A stretch of DNA of 43,179 bases from a virus. The DNA is taken from positions 1-43,179 of IMG/VR virus record IMGVR_UViG_3300043357_000047; one strand, 5' to 3'. The translations under genes and the position numbers were made by a program. Below the pieces are notes generated by a model. That model saw only the letters and a list, made by a program, of their open reading frames with translations, did no database searches and was not told where the DNA came from. Below are positions 1 to 37,518 of this stretch, one piece after another (positions within the stretch are counted from its first letter, which is position 1; each line of letters starts with the position of its first letter).

Positions 1-35
1 ACGTCGGGCGATCGGGCGCGAAGCGCCCGTCGAGT
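1..35. repeat. Terminal repeat of the contig, left copy
   Basis: Bases 1-35 match 43145-43179 at 34 of 35 positions; the only difference is base 6 (G here, T at 43150). The polymerase reading frame continues exactly across this overlap. The simplest reading is assembly overlap of a circular or circularly permuted molecule. Within the repeat, GGGCGC and GCGCCC flank GAA, a small hairpin. Confidence 0.85.
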
Positions 36-2848
36 GGCGCCCCGGCTGGGATCTGCCGGGGCGCTTCCTCGAGGCGATGGCCGATGATGCCGTCGAGGTG
101 GTGGCGCACAACGCGGCATTTGAAAGATTGATGCTCGAATACATATTACACCCTCGTCATGAGTGGCCGCTCATACCACTGGACCGTTGGGTCTGCACGA
201 TGGCGCGCGCGCGCGCGCAGGCGCTGCCGGGCGCGCTTGACGGCGCGGCGAACGCCGCCGGCCTGGACGTCAAGAAGGACCAGACCGGCTACGCGTTGAT
301 GCTACGCATGTGCAGGCCGCGTTCATTCAACCCCGACGGGTCGCCCGTGTGGTGGGTCGACGAGGAGCGCATGTCGCGTCTGTCCGACTACTGCGCGATG
401 GATGTTAAGGTCGAGCGCGCGCTCTATCAGGCCACGGTGCCTCTGCCGGTGTCGGAGCTGGACGCGTGGGACATGACGGAGCGGATGAACGACCGAGGCG
501 TGCGCTTCGATCTTCCCTTCGTGCGCGCCGCGCGCGTGGTCGCCGAGGACACGCGACAACTGCTCGACGCGGAGATGACGGCGCTCACCAACGGCGCGGT
601 CAATCGCGCGTCTAAAGTCGAGGACCTGAAACGCTGGCTGCTCGGGCGCGACGTTGATATGTCGCCGCCGCCGGAGCTGCTGCGCGATCGTGGTCCGGTC
701 GCCAAAGTGTTGGATCCTCCCGCCGACGAGGAGCTGCTGCTGGACCTCGACGCCGAGGCCGAGGATGACGAGGAGGCCGAGGACGCGATGCCGGAGCTGC
801 GGCGCCGTGACGTCATCCGTTTGATCGCCGATCCCCGCGTCCAGGCGCTCGAGCGCAAAGTGCTCAAGGTGCGCCTCGAGGCGGGCAAGATCTCCGTCAA
901 GAAGCTGGACGCGATCGTCCATCGCGCGGACGCCCAAGGCGTCGTGCGCGGCCTGCTCGGCTACCACGGCGCCAATACGGGCCGCTATATTTCGATGGGG
1001 CTGCAGATCCAGAACTTCCCGCGTGACACCACGGACGATTGGGACGGCATGCGCGCTCTGCTCGACCTGGGCGCGGACGCCGTGGACGCCTTCGGCGGGC
1101 CGCCGCTCGATGTCATCTCGCGCATGCTGCGCGGTGCGATCATCCCGCGTGACGGTCATGAGATCGCAACAGGCGATTTCAGCTCGGTCGAAGCCGTGGG
1201 CGTGGCGTGGCTGGCCGGGCAGGATGACCTGCTCGAGGCGTTCCGCGCCAAACGTAAGATCTATGAGGAGATGGGCGCGCGGGTTTACGGCGTCCCAACG
1301 GCTTCGGTCGCACCAGACAGCAAAATTCGTTTCATAGGCAAAACGATAATCCTCGGTAGTGGCTACCAGATGGGGTGGTGGAAGTTCCGCGAAACGTGTC
1401 TGATTCAGGGCGGTGTCCTGCTGACGCCGGAAGAGGCCGATCACGCCATCAAGAGCTATCGCGAGACCTATCCCAACATCCCCGCGCTGTGGTCGGACAT
1501 GCAGCGCGCGGCGGTCGAGGCGGTTAAACACGCCGGCACGGTTACGACAGCCGCCGGGGGCAGGATCAGATTCAAGCAGGACACGCACTGGCTGCGGATG
1601 CGCCTGCCGTCGGGTCGTTTCATTTGGTATAATCGTCCGTTGCTGGAAGACGACCAGTATGGCCGCGCGCGCGTAACCTACATGGCGGTCAACCAGAAGA
1701 CGCGGAAGTGGGAGCGCCAGAGCACCTACGGCGGTCGTCTGGTTGAGAACTGTTTGAGTGCCGGAACAATAATCCTGACCGATCACGGATGGCGGGCGAT
1801 CGAAACCGTGCGCCTCTCCGACCGGCTCTGGGATGGCGAGGCGTGGGTGTGCCATGCCGGGTTGATTGCCAAAGGCGAGCAAGACATCCTTGAGGTCGAT
1901 GGTGTTGGAATGACGCCTGACCATGAGGTGCTGACAACAAGGGGGTGGAGCGATGGGGCGTCCTGCGACGGATTGGACAGGGCGGCGTGTCGGTTTCCAG
2001 ACGGTGTTGTCTCGCTCTGGCAGCACGAAGCAGAGCAAGGCGGTGTGGCTGGTCCGTTGCGATTGCGGGTCCGAACGGCGAGTCGAGGCAGCCGATCTCC
2101 ACAAGGGATCGAAGTCCTGTGGCTGCCAGAAGAACGCTCTGATTTCAGCGCGCAACAGGACACACGGTATGTCGAAGCACCCGGCCTTCGCGGTCTGGCG
2201 CTCCATGCTGGACCGCTGCCGGTTGCCGACGCACCAGGCATGGCGGAACTACGGCGGGCGGGGGATCACGGTCTGCCCGGAGTGGCAGACAAGTTTCGAA
2301 GCGTTCTGGGCCGACATGGGTCCGACGTATCAAACAGGGCTGACCCTGGAGCACATCGACAACATGCGGGGGTATTCGCCAGCGAACTGTGCCTGGGTCA
2401 CACGCAAGGTGAACTCACGCAACACTCGGTGCTCGCGGTTAATCGACACACCATGGGGCCGGATGACAGTAGCCGAAGCGGCGGAACGGAGCGGCATCAA
2501 CGTGTCAACATTGCACCGCCGTCTAAGGGTTGGCGCCGACCTGTTTTCGATGTTCTCGACGCCGGACCTCGGCACCGTTTTGTCGTCGCGGGTGCCACCG
2601 GCCCGTTGATCGTCCACAACTGCGTCCAGGGCCTGTGCCGCGATCTGCTGGTCCACGCCACGCACACGCTCGAGCTGGCGGGCTACAACCCGATCACGCT
2701 CGTGCATGACGAAATCATCGCTGAACCGGAACGCGGCCACGGCTCCATCGAGGAGATGTGCGAGCTGATGTCCGAAGTGCCGCCGTGGGCGGCGGGGTTC
2801 GCGTTGAGCGCGAAGGGGGCGCGCGGCGTGCGTTACCAGAAAACCTAG
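2..2848 (+). CDS. Family A DNA polymerase with intein (main part)
   Basis: Replicative phage DNA polymerase of the Pol I (family A) type; the N-terminus is at 43032-43179. Joined numbering: exonuclease motif II near residues 71-79 (VVAHNAAFE), exonuclease motif III near residue 172 (YCAMD), polymerase motif A at Asp430 (DFSSVE), motif B with Lys485 ([12 protein letters not shown]), and motif C His940-Asp941-Glu942 (VHDE). An intein occupies residues 622-911, between motif B and motif C, and must be spliced out to join RLVEN to [10 protein letters not shown]. The mature polymerase would be about 696 residues. A first ATG at 77 is internal and not the true start. The gene follows DUF2800 and DUF2815 genes, a common phage replication set. 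Confidence 0.93.
1940..1950 (+). promoter_or_regulatory. Ribosome-binding site of the nested endonuclease
   Basis: AGGGGGTGGAG precedes ATG 1953. AGGGGG ends seven bases before the start, good Shine-Dalgarno spacing. This supports translation of the endonuclease as a separate protein rather than by frameshifting from the intein. Confidence 0.6.
1953..2609 (+). CDS. HNH homing endonuclease encoded out of frame inside the intein
   Basis: A 218-residue protein in the frame +1 relative to the polymerase. It has the full layout of free-standing phage HNH endonucleases. The N-terminus is [12 protein letters not shown], followed by a CxC...CGC zinc-binding module (RCDCGSE, SKSCGCQ). Next come [32 protein letters not shown], and the HNH core LEHIDN...[12 protein letters not shown]. 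The C-terminus has a NUMOD-like helix-turn-helix ([20 protein letters not shown]). ATG 1953 is the natural family start and has AGGGGG seven bases upstream. The last ~25 residues run out of frame through intein block F, and the stop TGA 2607-2609 lies in block G. Likely role: cleaving intein-less polymerase alleles to drive homing; this is inferred. Confidence 0.88.
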   Translation: MGRPATDWTGRRVGFQTVLSRSGSTKQSKAVWLVRCDCGSERRVEAADLHKGSKSCGCQKNALISARNRTHGMSKHPAFAVWRSMLDRCRLPTHQAWRNYGGRGITVCPEWQTSFEAFWADMGPTYQTGLTLEHIDNMRGYSPANCAWVTRKVNSRNTRCSRLIDTPWGRMTVAEAAERSGINVSTLHRRLRVGADLFSMFSTPDLGTVLSSRVPPAR

Positions 2849-2859
2849 AGGGGATTGTC

Positions 2860-3165
2860 ATGGAAGAGAACCAGAACAGCAACGGCTTACACTTTGGCGC
2901 GGTGAGGGCTGGTGGTGGCGCGAACGCACCGCACGCGGCCTGGGACATCGTGCTGCACGAGCCAGGTCGGAGCGATCGCGTGCTGGCGCGCGGCGCGCGC
3001 TGGCCCGACGCGGATGTCATCGTCAAAGCGTTGAACCGCGAAATCAACCATCGGGGAGGGGCTGGTGTTTCGCACCGGGCGATCAGGTTCACGGGTGACT
3101 GGGGTGAACCGCTGTTACACCCCGAGGCGCTTCGCATGTTCAGACCCTGGAACGCCGTGAAATGA
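2860..3165 (+). CDS. Conserved-looking small phage protein (101 aa)
   Basis: No family recognised. The start ATG 2860 follows AGAGGGG by six bases, 11 bases after the polymerase stop, so it belongs to the same operon. The protein ([13 protein letters not shown]...) has a central [18 protein letters not shown] segment and ends in RPWNAVK. It is soluble, with no membrane segment. The gene overlaps the next one by four bases (ATGA), which suggests translational coupling. Probably an accessory of replication; function unknown. Confidence 0.7.
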
Positions 3166-3386
3166 GTGATGCTCCGATGAAGCCGCTCCATCCCTCGGTG
3201 ACGCTGGAGCGGGTGCGGGCGGCGGTCGAGCGTGCCGCCCTGTCCCTGGACAATCCCGGCTTCTGCGCGGCCTGCGGCGCCGATGCGGACGGCTGTGAGC
3301 CGGATATGCTGAACGGCCCCTGCGAGGCCTGCGGCGAGCTGGCGGTGTGGAGCGCCTCGGAACTGCTGTTTCACATGGCGATCTGA
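3162..3386 (+). CDS. Small zinc-ribbon-like protein (74 aa)
   Basis: A 74-residue protein with two CxxC knuckles (FCAACGAD and GPCEACGE) about 20 residues apart, which together could bind one zinc ion. It starts at ATG 3162, overlapping the preceding stop (ATGA). It ends at TGA 3384-3386, which overlaps the next ATG (TGATG). Function unknown. Confidence 0.72.
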
Positions 3387-3502
3387 TGGCCGCGACGGAT
3401 CACAGCCTCAACCGGCGGCCCCGGGCGCTCCAGGCGGCCTTCGTGATCGCGCGGGATCTGGAGGGCTTGCCGGTCGTCGGCGCGTTGAACATGAACAACT
3501 GA
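3386..3502 (+). CDS. Very small coupled gene (38 aa)
   Basis: A 38-codon reading frame from ATG 3386 to TGA 3502, starting [19 protein letters not shown] and ending GALNMNN. It has no recognisable domain. The case for it is architecture: its ATG overlaps the upstream stop and its stop overlaps the downstream ATG, both as TGATG, so it fills the 115-base gap exactly and couples its neighbours. Confidence 0.6.
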   Translation: MAATDHSLNRRPRALQAAFVIARDLEGLPVVGALNMNN

Positions 3503-3777
3503 TGCCCGGCAGGTTCATCCCGCCTCCGGTGCGCGCCGCCGACATGGCCCGGGTCTGCCGGGCGCTGGCCGCCGACATGCGCCGCGAGGCCGCGCGCGGC
3601 CTGCCGTCGATCGGTCTGGCCTTCGATGGTCATTTGCCCTACGGCCAGCGGCCCATGATCAGCCGCGCCGAGGCCGCCGCCAGCATCGAGCGGCAGGCAG
3701 AGAGGTGGGAGGAAGAATTGAGGACGGGGGTGTGCAATGTGGTCGACCGGGTCAAGCTGGGGGAACCGGTCTGGTAG
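3502..3777 (+). CDS. Hypothetical protein, last gene of the early operon (91 aa)
   Basis: A 91-residue basic, largely helical protein (MPGRFIPPPVRAADMARVCR...), with an Ala/Glu-rich C-terminal half (SRAEAAASIERQAERWEEEL). The start is ATG 3502, coupled to the previous stop. Its 3' end overlaps the convergent minus-strand gene at 3752 by 26 bases, marking the end of the plus-strand operon. No family recognised. Confidence 0.65.
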   Translation: MPGRFIPPPVRAADMARVCRALAADMRREAARGLPSIGLAFDGHLPYGQRPMISRAEAAASIERQAERWEEELRTGVCNVVDRVKLGEPVW

Positions 3778-4072: not shown

Positions 4073-4665
4073 CCGCCCTCCAGTTCAATCAAGGAGAGTT
4101 GATCTGTTACCGCCTGCCGCTTCCCACGCCGGGCGGGTCTGCGACGATAAGCTTTCACGAATGCGAGACGGTCCCCGTTGAACATATACCGGATATTGAT
4201 GAAGAACACGCCTGGAACAGGACTGCGGAACAGGAATTGCTTTCGCAGCAATTCAAACATCCCCCTGTGATAGGTTCGTTCGTTTAATCCTGGGATTGTT
4301 TCTTGTAGTAACAACAAACTCAGACCGATCGTGTCGCTGTTCGGCTTCGCACTGATCTCCTGATATACGGCGGCGAAGAGGGTCAGCCCGGCCTTGCCCA
4401 GGCCAGTGGCTTGTTTCACGCCGTGCAGGAACAATTTCACGAACCGCTCCGCGTCAACCTCCTCCCATTCGTAGACGATCGCCGATCCGCGCCCGAGTAT
4501 CTCGCCCTCGTCGGGGTCGATAAGGAGCCCTTTTCGCTCATCTCCCAGGCGCCGTTTCTTGCCTCGGGCGGACACGCCCCCGGCCACGCTAGGGTTTTGT
4601 TTGTAGACGGGAAAACCCCTTCTGATAGCTAAAACGTTCGTGTCCTTGTCGTCTATTTCGGTCAT
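4069..4665 (-). CDS. Plasmid-type replication initiator, RepA/RepL-like winged helix
   Basis: A 198-residue protein. The central part (residues 74-175) has the pattern of plasmid Rep winged-helix proteins: FVKLFLHGVKQATGLGKAG, then helices ending in the recognition region NERTYHRGMFELLRKQFL. A wing-like strand follows (PGVFFINIRYMFNGDRLAFV). The charged N-terminus contains DPDEGEILG, reminiscent of the ETGEV segment of RepL-like initiators. It would bind iterons in the origin and recruit host replication proteins. The upstream intergenic region carries 11-bp repeats in both orientations and DnaA-box-like sites. The family assignment rests on remembered patterns; a MarR-like regulator is the main alternative. 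Confidence 0.65.
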   Translation of the reverse strand: MTEIDDKDTNVLAIRRGFPVYKQNPSVAGGVSARGKKRRLGDERKGLLIDPDEGEILGRGSAIVYEWEEVDAERFVKLFLHGVKQATGLGKAGLTLFAAVYQEISAKPNSDTIGLSLLLLQETIPGLNERTYHRGMFELLRKQFLFRSPVPGVFFINIRYMFNGDRLAFVKAYRRRPARRGKRQAVTDQLSLIELEGG

Positions 4666-5234: not shown

Positions 5235-6950
5235 TCATTGTGGTTGGAATCTCGGGTCGTCGATGGGGGCGACACGCGGCCCGGGCCCTGGAGGGGCCCC
5301 CAGCAGGCCGGGGAGCTGCGCCCCGCCGATCCCCGCCAGCGTGCCGCGCGTGACCTGTGGGGCCACTCCAGCCGCCGCCTGGTTGGTTAGATACGCCCGG
5401 CCCACGTTGGAGCGCGCCAGGGCCTGGATGACCGAGGGCAGGGCGAGGGCGCCGCCGCCCAGCAGGGCCCGCTGCGCGAGGTTGCCCCCGGCGAGGCCGC
5501 CGCCCAGCACCGCGCCACCTTGCAGCAGCTGCGTCATGGCGCTCCGCATCGACGTGCCGCTGTTCGGGATCGGGTCCTGGATGAAGGTCCGGCCAACGCG
5601 CGCGACGTCGTTCAGGTCGCCCCGGCCCCTGGCGTAGGCCTCGTTGTCACCGGCCAGGACGGTGGACAAACGCGTGGCCGGGATGTGTCCCGCCGCCGTG
5701 GCCGCGCTTGGGGCGTTGATCGCCTCGCGGATGATCATGCCGTTGGCGTATTGCCGCCGGAACGTGGCCAGCGCCTGGGCGTCCTCGGGCGACAGGGAGG
5801 CCTCCATGCCGTCGCGGAGCGCCTCCTGGAGGCGGCCCAGGTGCAGCCGCACCTCACCGCTGTCCACGGAGCGGATAGTCCGCGACAGTTCGGAATCCAG
5901 CGCCTGAAACGCCGGGCCCTCGACGTGCAGCCCGCCCTGCCCGTCGGGCCGGATCTTGGCGATGAAGTCGTCGACCCTGTTCCGCACCTGATGCGCGACA
6001 TTCCCGGGCAGATCGCGCGCGGCGTTGTTGGCCACCGCCGTGACGGCCTGCATCGAGGGCGCGTCGACCCGGAAATTGTTGGCGCCGTAGATGTTCCCCA
6101 TGCCCTGCCCGGCCCGCGCCAGGGCGGCATTGACCACGTCCGGCGTGGCGAGGTTCTCGCCGGTCTCCCCGGCGCGCAGCAGGGCCGCCCGGTTGAACGC
6201 GATCCGCTGCGCCTCCTCGTCCGCGTGCGCCGTGCCGGACGTCAGCGGCAAATCCTTGAACACCGAGTCCATGGTCCGCATCGGCCTGCTGCCGGACAGC
6301 TGGCCGGGCGTGAGCTGGATGCCCTCCCTGGTCGCGACCCCGGCGAGGCGGGCCTGCTCCGGGTTGAGCTGGCTGGCGCCCGGGGAGACCACGCCGCGCG
6401 CCGCGCCCGCCCCGAAGGGCACCAGCATGCTTGCCCCGAGGCCGACCAGCGGGCTGCCGGAGGCCTGCGTGGCGCTGCCGCCGGCAGCCCCGGCGATGGC
6501 CTGGGTGACCGGGTTCTCGGCGAGCTGCCCGGCGACACCGCCCACGACGCCGCCGAGGCGGGCGGCACCCGTCGCCGGCACGACCATCGACAGGGCGTCA
6601 CCGGCGCCGTGCCCGGCGGCGTAGAGGTTGCGCTCGGTCGGCGTGTCCGGCGTCAGCTTGCCGTAGATCGCGTCCCCGACGGCGTTGAGGCCGCCCTGTG
6701 CCCACTTCGTGTATTGGCCGGGGGCCGATGACGGCAGGCCGACGGCGCGCATGCCGGCGCCGATCGCGTCGGGGACGGCGCCGATCACCGATCCGATCGC
6801 GTCGTTGACGCCTGTCCCCACGGCGCGGACGTCGCGGTTGAGCACCTCGCCCGGCGTGCGGGCGTTGATGCGCGCGACCTCGTCGGCCTCGGCGGCGCGC
6901 TTGCGCTGCTGTTCGAACTCAGCGGCGATCGGATCGACGTCGTCCGCCAT
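5235..6950 (-). CDS. Putative DNA ejection / internal virion protein (571 aa)
   Basis: A 571-residue protein with long Ala/Gly-rich stretches (about residues 110-190 and 470-520) of the kind seen in membrane-interacting podovirus ejection proteins. The centre (residues 250-440) is soluble and helical, with DSELSRTIRSVDSGEVRLHLGRLQ. The C-terminus is Pro/Gly-rich. Start ATG 6950 lies four bases past the stop of the preceding gene. By position next to the virion lysozyme gene it would be packaged inside the capsid and ejected with the DNA. Assignment is from context and composition. Confidence 0.6.
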   Translation of the reverse strand: MADDVDPIAAEFEQQRKRAAEADEVARINARTPGEVLNRDVRAVGTGVNDAIGSVIGAVPDAIGAGMRAVGLPSSAPGQYTKWAQGGLNAVGDAIYGKLTPDTPTERNLYAAGHGAGDALSMVVPATGAARLGGVVGGVAGQLAENPVTQAIAGAAGGSATQASGSPLVGLGASMLVPFGAGAARGVVSPGASQLNPEQARLAGVATREGIQLTPGQLSGSRPMRTMDSVFKDLPLTSGTAHADEEAQRIAFNRAALLRAGETGENLATPDVVNAALARAGQGMGNIYGANNFRVDAPSMQAVTAVANNAARDLPGNVAHQVRNRVDDFIAKIRPDGQGGLHVEGPAFQALDSELSRTIRSVDSGEVRLHLGRLQEALRDGMEASLSPEDAQALATFRRQYANGMIIREAINAPSAATAAGHIPATRLSTVLAGDNEAYARGRGDLNDVARVGRTFIQDPIPNSGTSMRSAMTQLLQGGAVLGGGLAGGNLAQRALLGGGALALPSVIQALARSNVGRAYLTNQAAAGVAPQVTRGTLAGIGGAQLPGLLGAPPGPGPRVAPIDDPRFQPQ

Positions 6951-25883: not shown

Positions 25884-28489
25884 CACAGCCCTCCGTCAGG
25901 CGCGGCGGCGCCGTTGCCGGGCTGAGGGGCGCCATTGACGCCCGCGCCGATCGGCGGCGCCCGCAGGGCCTCGCGGATCAGGCCGGTGCGGATCTGCGTG
26001 TTCGCCCTCTGGGTCGCGATGTCGCGGTTGGTGCCGAGAGTGGCGGCCTGTTGGGCGACCTGGTGCACCTGATCAGCCCGCTGTTGGACGGCGGCGGCGA
26101 TCTGCTGCTCCCGGCTGAGTTGCAGCTCGTGGCTCTGCGTGAGCGCCTGCCGGTCGCGCTCGAGGGCGGCCTGAATCTGCTGGATATTGACCTGGGTGCC
26201 GTATTTCGCCTGGATCTCGGCGGCGCGCAGCAGGGTATCGGCGTCGAGCTGGTCCCTGCGGAAATCGTCATCCGATTTCGCCTTGGCCATGTCGAGCTGC
26301 TGCTGGCTCTGGTCGGTCTGGAATTTCGCCTTGGTCTTCTCGCCCTCGACCTGGGCGAGGAGCTGATTCGGATCGGGTGGCTTGTTCTGTGCCATCTGCT
26401 GGCTGAGCTGTTGTTCTTGCCCAGGCGTAACGACCTTGAAGAACCGATCGGGGTTCTTAAATCCCGCGATACTCAACATCTCGGCGTAGGTCTCGCGCAG
26501 CTGACCAATGCTCACGAGAGCGTTGTCCGGCCCAAGCATTTGCAGCACTTGTTCCTGTTTCGCACCGATCGTCTGAAGGAACGCCATGCGCTGGTCGTCG
26601 GTGCCGCGCCCCAGTCCGACGTTGACGCTGACATCCATGTCAGCGTCCCAGAAGCGCGGGTCGACGCTTACCCATTGGTTACGCAGGCGCACCGTGCGCG
26701 GTTTGTCCTGATGCCGGATGATGTAGCGCAAAAGACCTTTGAAAACGTCCTTGACGCCGATCTCGGCGAAGGTGCGCGCGATCAGCTCGACGCGGTCCTG
26801 CTGTGCTTCAACCGAGGCGGACACAGCGGATTTGGTAGTCGACTGGAGAACGTTGGCGTCGAGGCCCTGAGACTGGCGGCTGATGCCGGTGCGTTGCGCG
26901 CGCATCTCGTCCAGATAGTTCATGACGCCGAGGGCAGCCTGACCGATGAAGGGTTCGGACAGCGGCTGCACCATGCCCGGCGCCTGCATGCGGATGACGG
27001 CGCCGACCTCGTTATTCAAAACGTCATCCATCGTGACGGCATTTTCAACAACGGCGGTGCGGGGGAAGATCGATTGTGCTAAACTGTCGAGGATGCTGCG
27101 GAGGACACTGGTTTTGATGTCCTGCAGGTCGATCGTCTGATCGGCGATCGAGTAGCCGATCGCCGCGTGCGGCAGACGGACGGCGCTTAAGAGGGCGAAC
27201 GGCGCGTCATAATCGATCTCATCGGAGACGATCTCCTCGCCATTCTCGCCGACCGTGCAAATACGATGCAATTCGGCGATGCCGTCGCCATCGACGTCGA
27301 TACGCGCCCAGGCCTCGCAGTAAGGCACGCGCCACGTAGAGATGTCGGGGCCGCCGTCGTAATCACCGCCACGCAGGCCGGGATTGCGCTGCCTTGCCTC
27401 GTTGGAGCTGACCGAATTGCGCCCGGCGGGATCGGGACTCGCGTGCTCCTCGACCAGCTCGCGGTCGTAGCCGAGGGCGATCAACTCGGACACGGTCGGG
27501 TTGGTCCGGTGCGCGACGTAGCGCGACAGAACGACAGTCCTCGCCTCCCTGGAGATGAGAAACTCCTCCGGCGGCACGGCCTGCACGCGAAGGATGCGTT
27601 TGATCCGCTCGCGCCTGACCTCGCAGTCGATGAGCGGCTGCGGCCCGGGATCGAACATTCCAGGGAGCCCCGACATGCCGCCGGCGGAGGAAACGGGAGG
27701 CGGCATGCCGGGACCGGCGCCAGGGGGTGGCAAACCTGGAACGACGCCGGGTGGGGGAATCGGGGGAGCCGGACCTCCGCCGGAGGGCGGGTCCGGCGGA
27801 GGTCCCACGCCGGGGGGAGAAGACGCCAGGGGGACGCCCTCCCCGGGGTCCGGCGGTTCGGGGGGTTCAGAGGGTTCGGGCTGTTCGGGCGGTTCCTCGG
27901 CGTCGTCGGCCTGGACGACACCCGGCTTCGTCGCCTGGACGGCCTGATGCAGCACCTCGATCTCGGGATCAGACGACAGCTGCAAAAATTGCAGCAGCGT
28001 CAAACCCGTGTAGTCGAACTCTTCGACGGATGTGGTCTCCTCGAACCACCATTTGATGATGCCGATCTTCTTCAGGAGGGCATCGTGGACGGCGTCGTAA
28101 AGGGTCGAGAACCAGTTGTTGCCGTCGGCGTTCAGGAGGTAGCTGACATACTCGGTCGCCTGCTTCGCCGCGTCCTCGTCCTCCTGGGATCTGGGCTCGT
28201 AATCAACCACGCGTTCGCCACCCGCGAAGATGCGAATAATGCCCGGCAGCATTGTGTGAATGATGTCCGCGACCTCACGCACGACGGTCGCGGAGCGCCC
28301 GGGATCTCGTTGCTCAGGCGTATTGTCATCGTTGAGGACCAGACCCTCGTAATAGGCGAAAGCGCGCTCACGATCAGGCGCCAGCGTGTCGTCGGCGTAG
28401 CTGGCGGCGTCCTGCTTATAGGCACGCAGGATGGCGACGATCTCGTCGTCGTCGAGCTTATCGCGGCGGGGTTTCGCCGAACGTGCCAT
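25883..28489 (-). CDS. Portal protein, P22 gp1-like, with Pro/Gly insert (868 aa)
   Basis: The DNA entry and exit channel of the capsid. Portal features: AYYEGLVLNDDNTPEQRDPG, DIIHTMLPGIIRIFAGGERV, VDYEPRSQEDEDAAKQATEY, GIIKWWFEE, later YCEAWARIDVDGDGIAELHR and DEMRAQRTGISRQSQGL. The C-terminal ~200 residues form a long Gln-rich helical barrel (QIAAAVQQRADQVHQVAQQA), as in P22. Residues about 197-286 are an unusual Pro/Gly/Glu-rich low-complexity insertion between the clip/stem region and the following core. At 868 aa it is longer than P22 gp1 (725 aa). Start ATG 28489. Confidence 0.88.
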   Translation of the reverse strand: MARSAKPRRDKLDDDEIVAILRAYKQDAASYADDTLAPDRERAFAYYEGLVLNDDNTPEQRDPGRSATVVREVADIIHTMLPGIIRIFAGGERVVDYEPRSQEDEDAAKQATEYVSYLLNADGNNWFSTLYDAVHDALLKKIGIIKWWFEETTSVEEFDYTGLTLLQFLQLSSDPEIEVLHQAVQATKPGVVQADDAEEPPEQPEPSEPPEPPDPGEGVPLASSPPGVGPPPDPPSGGGPAPPIPPPGVVPGLPPPGAGPGMPPPVSSAGGMSGLPGMFDPGPQPLIDCEVRRERIKRILRVQAVPPEEFLISREARTVVLSRYVAHRTNPTVSELIALGYDRELVEEHASPDPAGRNSVSSNEARQRNPGLRGGDYDGGPDISTWRVPYCEAWARIDVDGDGIAELHRICTVGENGEEIVSDEIDYDAPFALLSAVRLPHAAIGYSIADQTIDLQDIKTSVLRSILDSLAQSIFPRTAVVENAVTMDDVLNNEVGAVIRMQAPGMVQPLSEPFIGQAALGVMNYLDEMRAQRTGISRQSQGLDANVLQSTTKSAVSASVEAQQDRVELIARTFAEIGVKDVFKGLLRYIIRHQDKPRTVRLRNQWVSVDPRFWDADMDVSVNVGLGRGTDDQRMAFLQTIGAKQEQVLQMLGPDNALVSIGQLRETYAEMLSIAGFKNPDRFFKVVTPGQEQQLSQQMAQNKPPDPNQLLAQVEGEKTKAKFQTDQSQQQLDMAKAKSDDDFRRDQLDADTLLRAAEIQAKYGTQVNIQQIQAALERDRQALTQSHELQLSREQQIAAAVQQRADQVHQVAQQAATLGTNRDIATQRANTQIRTGLIREALRAPPIGAGVNGAPQPGNGAAAPDGGL

Positions 28490-35073: not shown

Positions 35074-37518
35074 TTAGTCGAACTCGGGAATGTTGGATTT
35101 ACCCCGATCCGCGACCAGTTGATCCTTCAAAGCACGGGTCGTGAGCTGCCCCGCCAGGGCCGCGTTTCCCGCGCGCGTCCAGACCCGAGGCCTGTCATCT
35201 CCATCCACGATCTGTTGCGGCAAAGTCACCCATTTGAGCATCTTGAGCGCCTTCACGACGTGCTCCCTGGACATGCCCCGGGCTACCATGTCCCCCGCCT
35301 GCCATTTGCCCGCCTGACCCTTGTCGGTCAGCTCCGCGACCGTCACGAAGTTACGCGGCCGCATTGGGCGTCCATCATCCCAGAGCCCCATCACCCAGGC
35401 TACCGCCGGATGCGCGCCCTTACGCGCCATCAGGGCTTTCGCCGCCGTCATCGGCGGGCGCGCGTTCGGGTTGAACCGCGACACGTCACGGCTCAGCAGG
35501 AATCCCATGACGGCCTCCTTGCCGCCATGCGCATACCAATCGTGCAACACCCCCGCCCTGGCGTCGGCTTCTTCCGCGCCGCCAGCGCCCATCACGACGG
35601 CTACGACGTCGAGGCGCCGGTCATCCTCCGCCATGGCGATGGCGTCCTCGTTGTTGGTCGTGATGAAAACGTTAATAATGTTTGGAATGTCATACTCTTC
35701 CAGCCCTTTCCTGTTGATGCGGAACCTGTCCGGCGGCGTCGTCAGCCAGCCCTTGACGTCCTCATAGACATCACGCCGCCGGGCGGATGGCATCTCGGCG
35801 ACCAGCAGCCACGCGCGCTCCAGATACGAATTGAACGATCCGCCCAGCACGGCGCCTTGCACGACCGTGTGGTTGTGCTCCCCGATCGCCGCCCAGAACG
35901 GCACCAGAAGCGTATCCTTGCCGGTGCCCTGACCGCCCTGGAGCACCAGGGCTGAGTTGATCTTGCGCCCGGGGTTCTGGAGCGCCCACGCCAGGCGGTC
36001 GATCACCCTCCGCCTGTCGCTCTCCTCCGGTATCAGGCGCTCGGCGTGATCCAGCCACGGCTTGACATCAGCAGCCGTGGCGCCCCTCAACGGCACCAGC
36101 CGCGACGGCCTCCAGACATTGGCGTGGACCTGCCCGCCCTCGTCCACCAGCGCGCCGGCGCCAGGGCGCATGGTCAGCGAGTGTGCTTTCCGCATGCCTG
36201 AATCCGCCCGCGCCAGACGCGCGATGAGGCTCTTGCGCCCGCCGACCGTGGCGCCGCCCACGCCCATGTGCTGCGCCTCCATCCGCAGGCGTAGCTCGTC
36301 CATCAGCAGAAACGTCTCCGTATCCAGCCAACGGTGCTGCGTCAGGCAGTAGATCATCCGCGCGGCCAGCTTCCTGAAGGCCGCGCCGGCTGTCTCGCGC
36401 GCGTCGGCCTCGCCTGGCTTCGTCTCCGCCGCCTCACGCGGTAGCAGCCCCCTGGCGCTGCCCTCCTCCGCCTCCACCACCACGTCGAACTCGTCGCACC
36501 GGGCGCGGCTCGGCGTCACCCAGCGCCTGTCGGTCTGCCGCGCCAGATACCACAGCGTGCCCCAGCCAAGCGCGTCGGCGGGTGAGTCGAACCAGTGTGC
36601 CCACCGCTCGCGGCAGGCCTCGTCGTCGTGCTTCCAGTCACACTTCTCGGACCACTTCCGCCACGCCTCGAACGCATCCGGGTCGCCGCCGCTGGCGGCG
36701 TGCGCGGCCATGCCGACCCGGCTCCAGTCGTCCCAGTGCAGGTCCTCGTTGCTCATCACGCCCAGGGCACTGGCGATGTCGCCCGCCTCGGCTGTTCGCA
36801 CCGGCCCCGCCCGCCGGATCCGGGCGTCCCGGTCGCGCTCCCGGCTCATCTTCTGCTTGTCGGCCAGCAGCCACAGCTCGAACGCCACGCCGCCGATATC
36901 CACTGTCGCGTCACCGCGCCAGTCCCAACCGGTCACCGTGACGTAGCGCGCGCAGGCGAAGTAGATCTCGATCGCCGCGCGCGGGTCGCACTCCCTCGAC
37001 CCGCCCCAGACCGCCAGCCCCTCGTCATCCTGCGCGGCCAGGAAGGCCGGCATCAGCAGCTTGCCCTGGAACGCCACGTCGAAGCCGCAGGCGCCCAGGA
37101 CGCGCAGGCCGGTCCCGGAGGGCGTCACCTCGACGTAAGCGCCCTGGCACATCTCCAGGACCGCCAGCGCCCACGGCGCCACCTCTCCCGTGACCGGGTC
37201 GCGGCACTTGTCGATGTCCAGGAAGGCTCTCGTCAGGTCGTCCACGCAGAACCAGCCAACGCCGACCGCGCCCGCGACCCCCACGCCAGCGGCGGCCTCC
37301 GTCCAGGTCACGCAGCCTCGCGTGTTGTTGACCCGCGCGCCGTAGCCCGTTCTCGGCAGGGTCGGGCGCTTGGTCCATGCCGCCGTGCCGTCGCGGCGCG
37401 GCACGATCTTCTGAACCCAGGTGCACCATCGCCGCTCCGCCAGCATGGCCGCGAGGGTGGGGATCGTGGCGAGGTCGAGCCCGCGCGCGCGCGGGTCCAG
37501 GGGGGTCGCGCCGGGCAT
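35074..37518 (-). CDS. Primase-helicase (prim-pol, PriCT-2, helicase) (814 aa)
   Basis: A multifunctional replication protein. N-terminus (residues 25-140): prim-pol-like domain, with RWCTWVQKI, KRPTLPRTGYGARVNN, the metal-binding pair FLDIDKC (Asp101 and Asp103) and VEVTPSGTGLRVLG. Middle: a PriCT-2-like segment, LGVMSNEDLHWDDWSRVGMA then DPDAFEAWRKWSEKC. C-terminus: superfamily 3-type (DUF5906/VapE-like) helicase with Walker A LQGGQGTGKDTLL near residue 525 and a Walker B-like WLLVAEMP after it. It would prime and unwind phage DNA. It is on the strand opposite to the polymerase operon. Start ATG 37518 overlaps the upstream stop. Confidence 0.87.
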   Translation of the reverse strand: MPGATPLDPRARGLDLATIPTLAAMLAERRWCTWVQKIVPRRDGTAAWTKRPTLPRTGYGARVNNTRGCVTWTEAAAGVGVAGAVGVGWFCVDDLTRAFLDIDKCRDPVTGEVAPWALAVLEMCQGAYVEVTPSGTGLRVLGACGFDVAFQGKLLMPAFLAAQDDEGLAVWGGSRECDPRAAIEIYFACARYVTVTGWDWRGDATVDIGGVAFELWLLADKQKMSRERDRDARIRRAGPVRTAEAGDIASALGVMSNEDLHWDDWSRVGMAAHAASGGDPDAFEAWRKWSEKCDWKHDDEACRERWAHWFDSPADALGWGTLWYLARQTDRRWVTPSRARCDEFDVVVEAEEGSARGLLPREAAETKPGEADARETAGAAFRKLAARMIYCLTQHRWLDTETFLLMDELRLRMEAQHMGVGGATVGGRKSLIARLARADSGMRKAHSLTMRPGAGALVDEGGQVHANVWRPSRLVPLRGATAADVKPWLDHAERLIPEESDRRRVIDRLAWALQNPGRKINSALVLQGGQGTGKDTLLVPFWAAIGEHNHTVVQGAVLGGSFNSYLERAWLLVAEMPSARRRDVYEDVKGWLTTPPDRFRINRKGLEEYDIPNIINVFITTNNEDAIAMAEDDRRLDVVAVVMGAGGAEEADARAGVLHDWYAHGGKEAVMGFLLSRDVSRFNPNARPPMTAAKALMARKGAHPAVAWVMGLWDDGRPMRPRNFVTVAELTDKGQAGKWQAGDMVARGMSREHVVKALKMLKWVTLPQQIVDGDDRPRVWTRAGNAALAGQLTTRALKDQLVADRGKSNIPEFD

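Follow-up and report, generated by a model that had tools for sequence, protein, structure and literature searches.

In the textbook intein, the splicing domain and the homing endonuclease are fused in one chain and are evolutionarily tied to each other. Ordinary large inteins carry such an in-frame HNH or LAGLIDADG endonuclease between blocks B and F of the Hint domain. Another arrangement, the fractured gene, in which the endonuclease gene stands free between the halves of a split intein, was reportedly described by Dassa et al. in 2009 (a paper cited in PMC3229294). Here, we describe a further arrangement in a DNA polymerase gene at the left end of IMG/VR virus record IMGVR_UViG_3300043357_000047, the whole of which (43,179 bases) was analyzed and is referred to as the window. 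The gene very probably contains a self-splicing intein whose homing endonuclease is encoded as a separate HNH gene in another frame of the same bases. As in ordinary large inteins, the endonuclease lies between blocks B and F of a Hint domain; however, it is read in a different frame from the intein and from a start of its own. The window resembles fractured genes, whose layout is shared by three related loci (L217, L178, and L142; L-numbers label related loci and contigs), in having the intein and its endonuclease as distinct genes of one locus, but its Hint halves lie in one uninterrupted open reading frame (ORF, 2-2848), which sets it apart from split inteins.

Single instances of out-of-frame HNH genes are already known. 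In APSE-1, a Hamiltonella phage, the HNH P46 is annotated as a coding sequence that overlaps the P45 DNA polymerase; as in the window, the same polymerase motif holds the same intein with the HNH at +1, and the two loci are 30% identical end to end over the intein and 49% over the HNH. Unlike the window HNH, P46 (L019, 4431-4853) is annotated from a late start at 4431, which cuts off the zinc module. That start is seemingly too late, as a GTG at 4203 behind AAAGGG would restore the zinc module seen in the relatives. A 2021 paper on APSE genomics mentions neither the intein nor the HNH (PMC8579659). The ShiLan domain of a mycobacteriophage methylase (PMC11855218) resembles the window in that an out-of-frame HNH occupies a phage gene whose own frame stays open. 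However, it has no detectable splicing domain or ribosome-binding site, whereas a complete Hint domain surrounds the HNH of the window and Shine–Dalgarno (SD) sequences are enriched; the presence of Hint places the window outside the non-splicing ShiLan type. For brucellaphages, a putative out-of-frame intein HNH is mentioned in the large terminase gene rather than in a polymerase, and the passages concerned contain no analysis of intein motifs (PMC4422536). No description of a class was found in the literature; a 2025 preprint on non-canonical actinobacteriophage inteins (10.1101/2025.01.02.630785), cited in PMC11855218 and not consulted here, may overlap with the present work. The comparisons below indicate that the design is no one-off and that it is stable, widespread, and largely overlooked.

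Organization of the Intein and the Nested HNH Gene

The host gene is a family-A phage DNA polymerase ORF at 2..2848 (phrog_17 E 3.4e-84; Pfam DNA_pol_A E 3.3e-17), which is open throughout and lies, like all features of the intein described below, on the + strand. Its exteins (2-1750 and 2621-2848) are separated at GGRLVEN^C by an intein of 290 residues (1751-2620), and the insertion falls in the conserved polymerase motif GGKLVEN-VQA. The polymerase of Microcystis phage MJing1 provides an empty-site homologue, which is uninterrupted and aligns with the exteins without a gap across the site; at the codon of Cys+1 of the C-extein (2621..2623) it reads GGRLVEN^AVQGLCRDL.

The earlier note, made from the letters alone, had claimed a full set of intein motifs in the polymerase frame and, in the +1 frame, a complete HNH endonuclease with its own start and an AGGGGG ribosome-binding site. 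Both claims were borne out. All splicing motifs are present, namely Cys1 (1751), block B as TPDH, block F, His-Asn (2615-2620), and Cys+1 (2621), and the window thus has every element of a class 1 Hint domain (Cys/Ser1, block B TxxH, block F, C-terminal His-Asn, and Cys/Ser/Thr+1). Among the relatives, C1, T55, H58, H289, and N290 are invariant in the intein alignment, and Cys1, the block B Thr and His, the terminal HN, and Cys+1 are invariant or nearly so. The Hint-N half, with Cys1 and block B, spans 1751..1948 (profile E 6e-30), and the Hint-C half, with block F and the His-Asn end, spans 2537..2620 (profile E 1e-14) and overlaps the HNH gene over the final ~70 bases of the latter. The intein profile also matches the Mtu RecA intein (E 1.8e-6). 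An AlphaFold2 (AF2) model has a Hint fold, with a predicted local distance difference test (pLDDT) score of 86-98 for residues 1-90 (93-98 for residues 1-80) and 85-97 near the end, where Hint-C lies. Between the halves, the linker (1950..2536) is predicted to be disordered, with pLDDT mainly 36-56 over residues 91-258. The best Foldseek matches of the model are all inteins with a probability near 1, albeit at E ~6e-3 at best, a score which is probably diluted by the disordered linker. The motifs and the fold support an intein of the splicing type.

The HNH gene runs from ATG 1953 to TGA 2609 (1953..2609), in the +1 frame relative to the polymerase and not in the intein frame, and encodes 218 amino acids that match the phage HNH family phrog_374 (E 1.6e-55) and comprise a zinc module, an HNH core, and a C-terminal helix-turn-helix (HTH). 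The whole of it overlaps the intein out of frame, its final ~70 bases coding also for Hint block F, and the linker is a frame-shifted read of it, as had been proposed. A profile built from relatives matches the window HNH at E 8e-93, the window being one of the seeds of that profile, and the HTH gives a weak yet recurrent match to Pfam HTH_24 (E 0.0014). In 29 relatives, the zinc-binding residues C36, C38, C56, and C58 are invariant, together with H71, N145, and N157. A Shine–Dalgarno-like AAGGGGG (1939..1945) ends seven bases before the ATG, within the codons for the conserved Hint residues T-R-G-W.

Distribution among Phages

In scans of IMG/VR and GTDB genomes, combined with phage records, we found 189 distinct HNHs that lie out of frame inside related phage inteins, 124 of them at +1 and 65 at +2; none is in frame. 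When HNH similarity was the sole criterion for choosing loci, the 80 nearest relatives comprised 74 nested at +1 in a Hint intein within a single ORF, five free-standing HNHs, and one fractured locus. Shewanella phage SFCi1, Caulobacter phages, and APSE phages give end-to-end matches to the intein frame over all 290 residues, including the linker, and the HNH is at +1 in those examined. A second insertion motif of the +1 group, NKLLQIS^CGxVY, occurs in L071, L079, L080, and L081, seemingly in another host gene; this motif appears to resemble a helicase motif. The HNHs of Vibrio phage AQKL99 and Pseudomonas MR18 overlap neighboring genes, but no Hint halves were found there, and they were treated as free-standing.

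The +2 group occupies the O-helix region of the polymerase, a site assigned from its motif, and includes Vibrio 97.13, Pseudomonas MR14, Escherichia P-GXEC-L2P5, and the Salmonella Jerseyvirus vB_SpuP_Spp11. In L002 and L006 (2828-4834), one polymerase carries two inteins, with an HNH at +2 at the O-helix site and an HNH at +1 at the C-terminal site. The class is common but hidden: in L265 (vB_SpuP_Spp11, 2756-3652), the product annotated as an "intein-containing DNA polymerase precursor" carries an HNH at +2 that the annotation omits. The intein query was matched by 145 Salmonella phage records.

Open Frames and Selection

To assess the overlap against chance, the HNH protein and its codon usage were held fixed and synonymous codons were shuffled. 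The intein frame of the window was left open in 0.3% of these shuffles. Among related inteins, it is open in 185 of 185 against about 2.2 expected, a count which partly reflects the definition of the set, since membership required both Hint halves in one ORF; failures of this definition were sought separately and amount to three fractured loci and fragments at contig edges. Members below 50% guanine-cytosine (GC) content have the intein frame open in 36 of 36 cases against 0.03 expected. A chance long ORF in GC-rich DNA is ruled out by the shuffling and by these low-GC members. The third frame is open in none of the related inteins, with about as many stops as expected, and full-length free-standing HNHs of the same family likewise have about the expected number of stops in their other frames. 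Two loci first classed as free-standing controls proved to be inteins cut by contig ends: the HNH of L209 is at zero tree distance from that of the L047 intein, and L110 contains Hint-N and ends just past its HNH match.

The two frames are maintained differently, in that selection acts on the amino acids of the HNH, whereas the overlapping stretch of the intein frame is maintained only through the avoidance of stops. The analysis of codon substitutions in relatives, which the earlier note had suggested as a check on which frame is conserved, gave a ratio of nonsynonymous to synonymous rates (dN/dS) of about 0.12-0.15 in the HNH frame for pairs 75-99% identical, and of about 0.13-0.2 for Hint-N in close pairs. 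Over the overlapping bases, the intein frame gave 1.1-1.7 in all of the ten identity classes but one, the small class of closest +2 pairs (0.84). Ratios above 1 are to be expected here, since they follow from constraint in the other frame, and do not point to positive selection. Distant +1 members share a linker identity of 0.246, compared with 0.223 when the HNH codons are synonymously shuffled. A constrained linker protein is therefore unsupported, and the high ratios in most classes, together with an identity near the passive expectation, indicate that the linker is close to a passenger with one rule, the absence of stops.

Probable Internal Initiation of the Nuclease

Members differ in where the HNH gene starts: its ATG or GTG lies at one of several positions, toward the end of Hint-N in the +1 class and inside Hint-N in the +2 class. 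Because choosing the best start for each member would be biased, SD matches were scored at five fixed start positions against 500 re-codings in which the Hint codons upstream were replaced synonymously. At each position, the mean match was longer than in all 500 re-codings. At the Cys1+202 start, an SD of at least four bases was found in 98% of members against 84% expected, and in 53% of members without a start there. This enrichment among the relatives supports internal initiation of the HNH, in agreement with the proposal that the nuclease is translated independently of the intein.

Proposed Mechanism and Alternative Explanations

Splicing, translation of a free HNH, cleavage of empty alleles, and a route to split inteins are steps that we infer from the sequences and their comparison. 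Ribosomes in the polymerase frame would produce a precursor, from which the Hint domain, judged by its motifs and fold, would remove the intein with its disordered linker of ~170 residues. Ribosomes initiating at ATG 1953 via AGGGGG would produce a free HNH of 218 amino acids, as the conservation of start and SD suggests. The nuclease would cleave polymerase genes lacking the intein, at the insertion site or close to it, and repair would copy the whole intein in; the empty site in MJing1 and the wide spread among phages bear on such homing only indirectly. As the relatives show, selection preserves the amino acids of the HNH, those of Hint, and a stop-free linker. Intein and nuclease would thus be separate proteins on one stretch of DNA, contrary to the textbook fusion, because of which the linker would be a natural protein segment with almost no sequence constraint beyond readability.

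Several observations weigh against this interpretation. Single sequences gave no useful Hint or HNH match in Pfam or NCBIfam (Pfam Hint_2 E 0.14), so that the Hint assignment draws on profiles and fold instead. The HNH model had no significant match among PDB folds, and the HNH profile matched the HNH homing endonuclease 1u3e only weakly (E 0.079). The exact catalytic set is uncertain because the first classical HNH His, present in the window (LEHIDN), is replaced by Arg in the majority of relatives (L[DE]R). In addition, the 5′ end of the polymerase is lost at the contig end, its start lying outside the contig, and the intein set carries the definitional limit given above.

Two alternatives to a spliced intein with a freely translated nuclease concern the nested frame. 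The HNH ORF could be a decaying relic whose translation has been lost, as broken or partial HNHs occur in the relatives L034, L102/L108, L109, L169, and L180. This is very unlikely for the window, where the HNH retains its full length, its start, an SD, and the conserved residues; even among HNH pairs more than 90% identical, dN/dS stays at about 0.13. Programmed ribosomal frameshifting, which would join the HNH to Hint-N as a fusion and yield no free protein, would make use of the G-run AAGGGGG before the HNH start and of an HNH frame that is already open from 1935. It is nevertheless very improbable in view of start codons whose SD exceeds the synonymous null at five positions, the much rarer SD at +1-class positions in members lacking a start there, and an offset of +1 or +2 depending on clade, for which a single conserved slippery site would not account.

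Other alternatives concern the insertion itself. Out-of-frame HNH insertions that do not splice have been described in phage methylases (PMC11855218), and a ShiLan-like element tolerated by the polymerase as a loop would be of this kind. We regard it as very improbable here, since the complete Hint motifs are conserved across relatives, Hint-N is under purifying selection, the fold matches inteins, mini-inteins persist without an HNH, and the insert sits in a conserved polymerase motif. The window is one environmental contig, in which a pair of sequencing or assembly frameshifts might have displaced an ordinary in-frame HNH. The probability of such an artefact is negligible: the same +1 offset recurs in independently sequenced APSE-1, Shewanella SFCi1, and Caulobacter KcrB, as well as in more than 100 contigs, and no in-frame version was found. 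A frameshift error, which the earlier note had named as a possible refutation, is excluded for the class because independently sequenced phages share both layout and relative frame. A group I intron is also rejected: positions 1500-3000 matched no intron family of Rfam at E values as high as 1, and the host frame is open throughout.

Evolutionary History, Loss, and Fracture

The locus had been described as a snapshot of endonuclease invasion of a mini-intein, a view that did not hold against 189 distinct nested HNHs in diverse phages. A single change of frame offset suffices for the tree of 171 HNHs, and the two frames are most simply taken as two old lineages. Distances among HNHs and among Hint domains are correlated (Mantel r 0.60, largest null 0.07). 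Together, the single frame change and this correlation indicate that the arrangement is old and stably inherited. The Hint tree requires five offset changes but is based on ~94 residues.

Loss of the nuclease is suggested by two loci from one metagenome, L161 (4922-5326) and L162 (4186-5121), with flanks that are 99.5-99.8% identical. Relative to L162, L161 has an exact in-frame gap of 531 bp in the HNH between two ACCG repeats, which leaves a mini-intein of 135 residues. Because of these repeats, the difference is better read as loss of the HNH than as gain. Partial HNH relics are present in L109, L169, and L180.

In L217 (893-3932), L178 (3401-5300), and L142 (700-2300), the polymerase is fractured into an N-half with the N-terminal part of the intein (IntN), an HNH, and the C-terminal part of the intein (IntC) with the C-half. 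The three parts lie in three different frames with many stops between them, and in L217 the stop of the HNH and the start of IntC overlap in the sequence ATGA. All three loci resemble split inteins that have a free nuclease between their halves. As the nuclease would already be translated independently, the linker could acquire stops and Hint-C a start of its own, and the three loci would be products of this route; the reverse direction, from split to overlapping, may also apply. That overlapping-frame inteins form a distinct and ancient class, with two genes on the same bases, and that they are a source of split inteins is a joint proposal to which we give slightly less than an even chance. 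Since the relatives range from nuclease loss to apparent split inteins, the origin of split inteins becomes testable on real intermediates.

Elsewhere in the window, genes for a DNA ejection protein (5238-6950, -), a portal protein (phrog_1216; 25886-28489, -), and a DNA primase (35077-37518, -) lie on the strand opposite to the polymerase.
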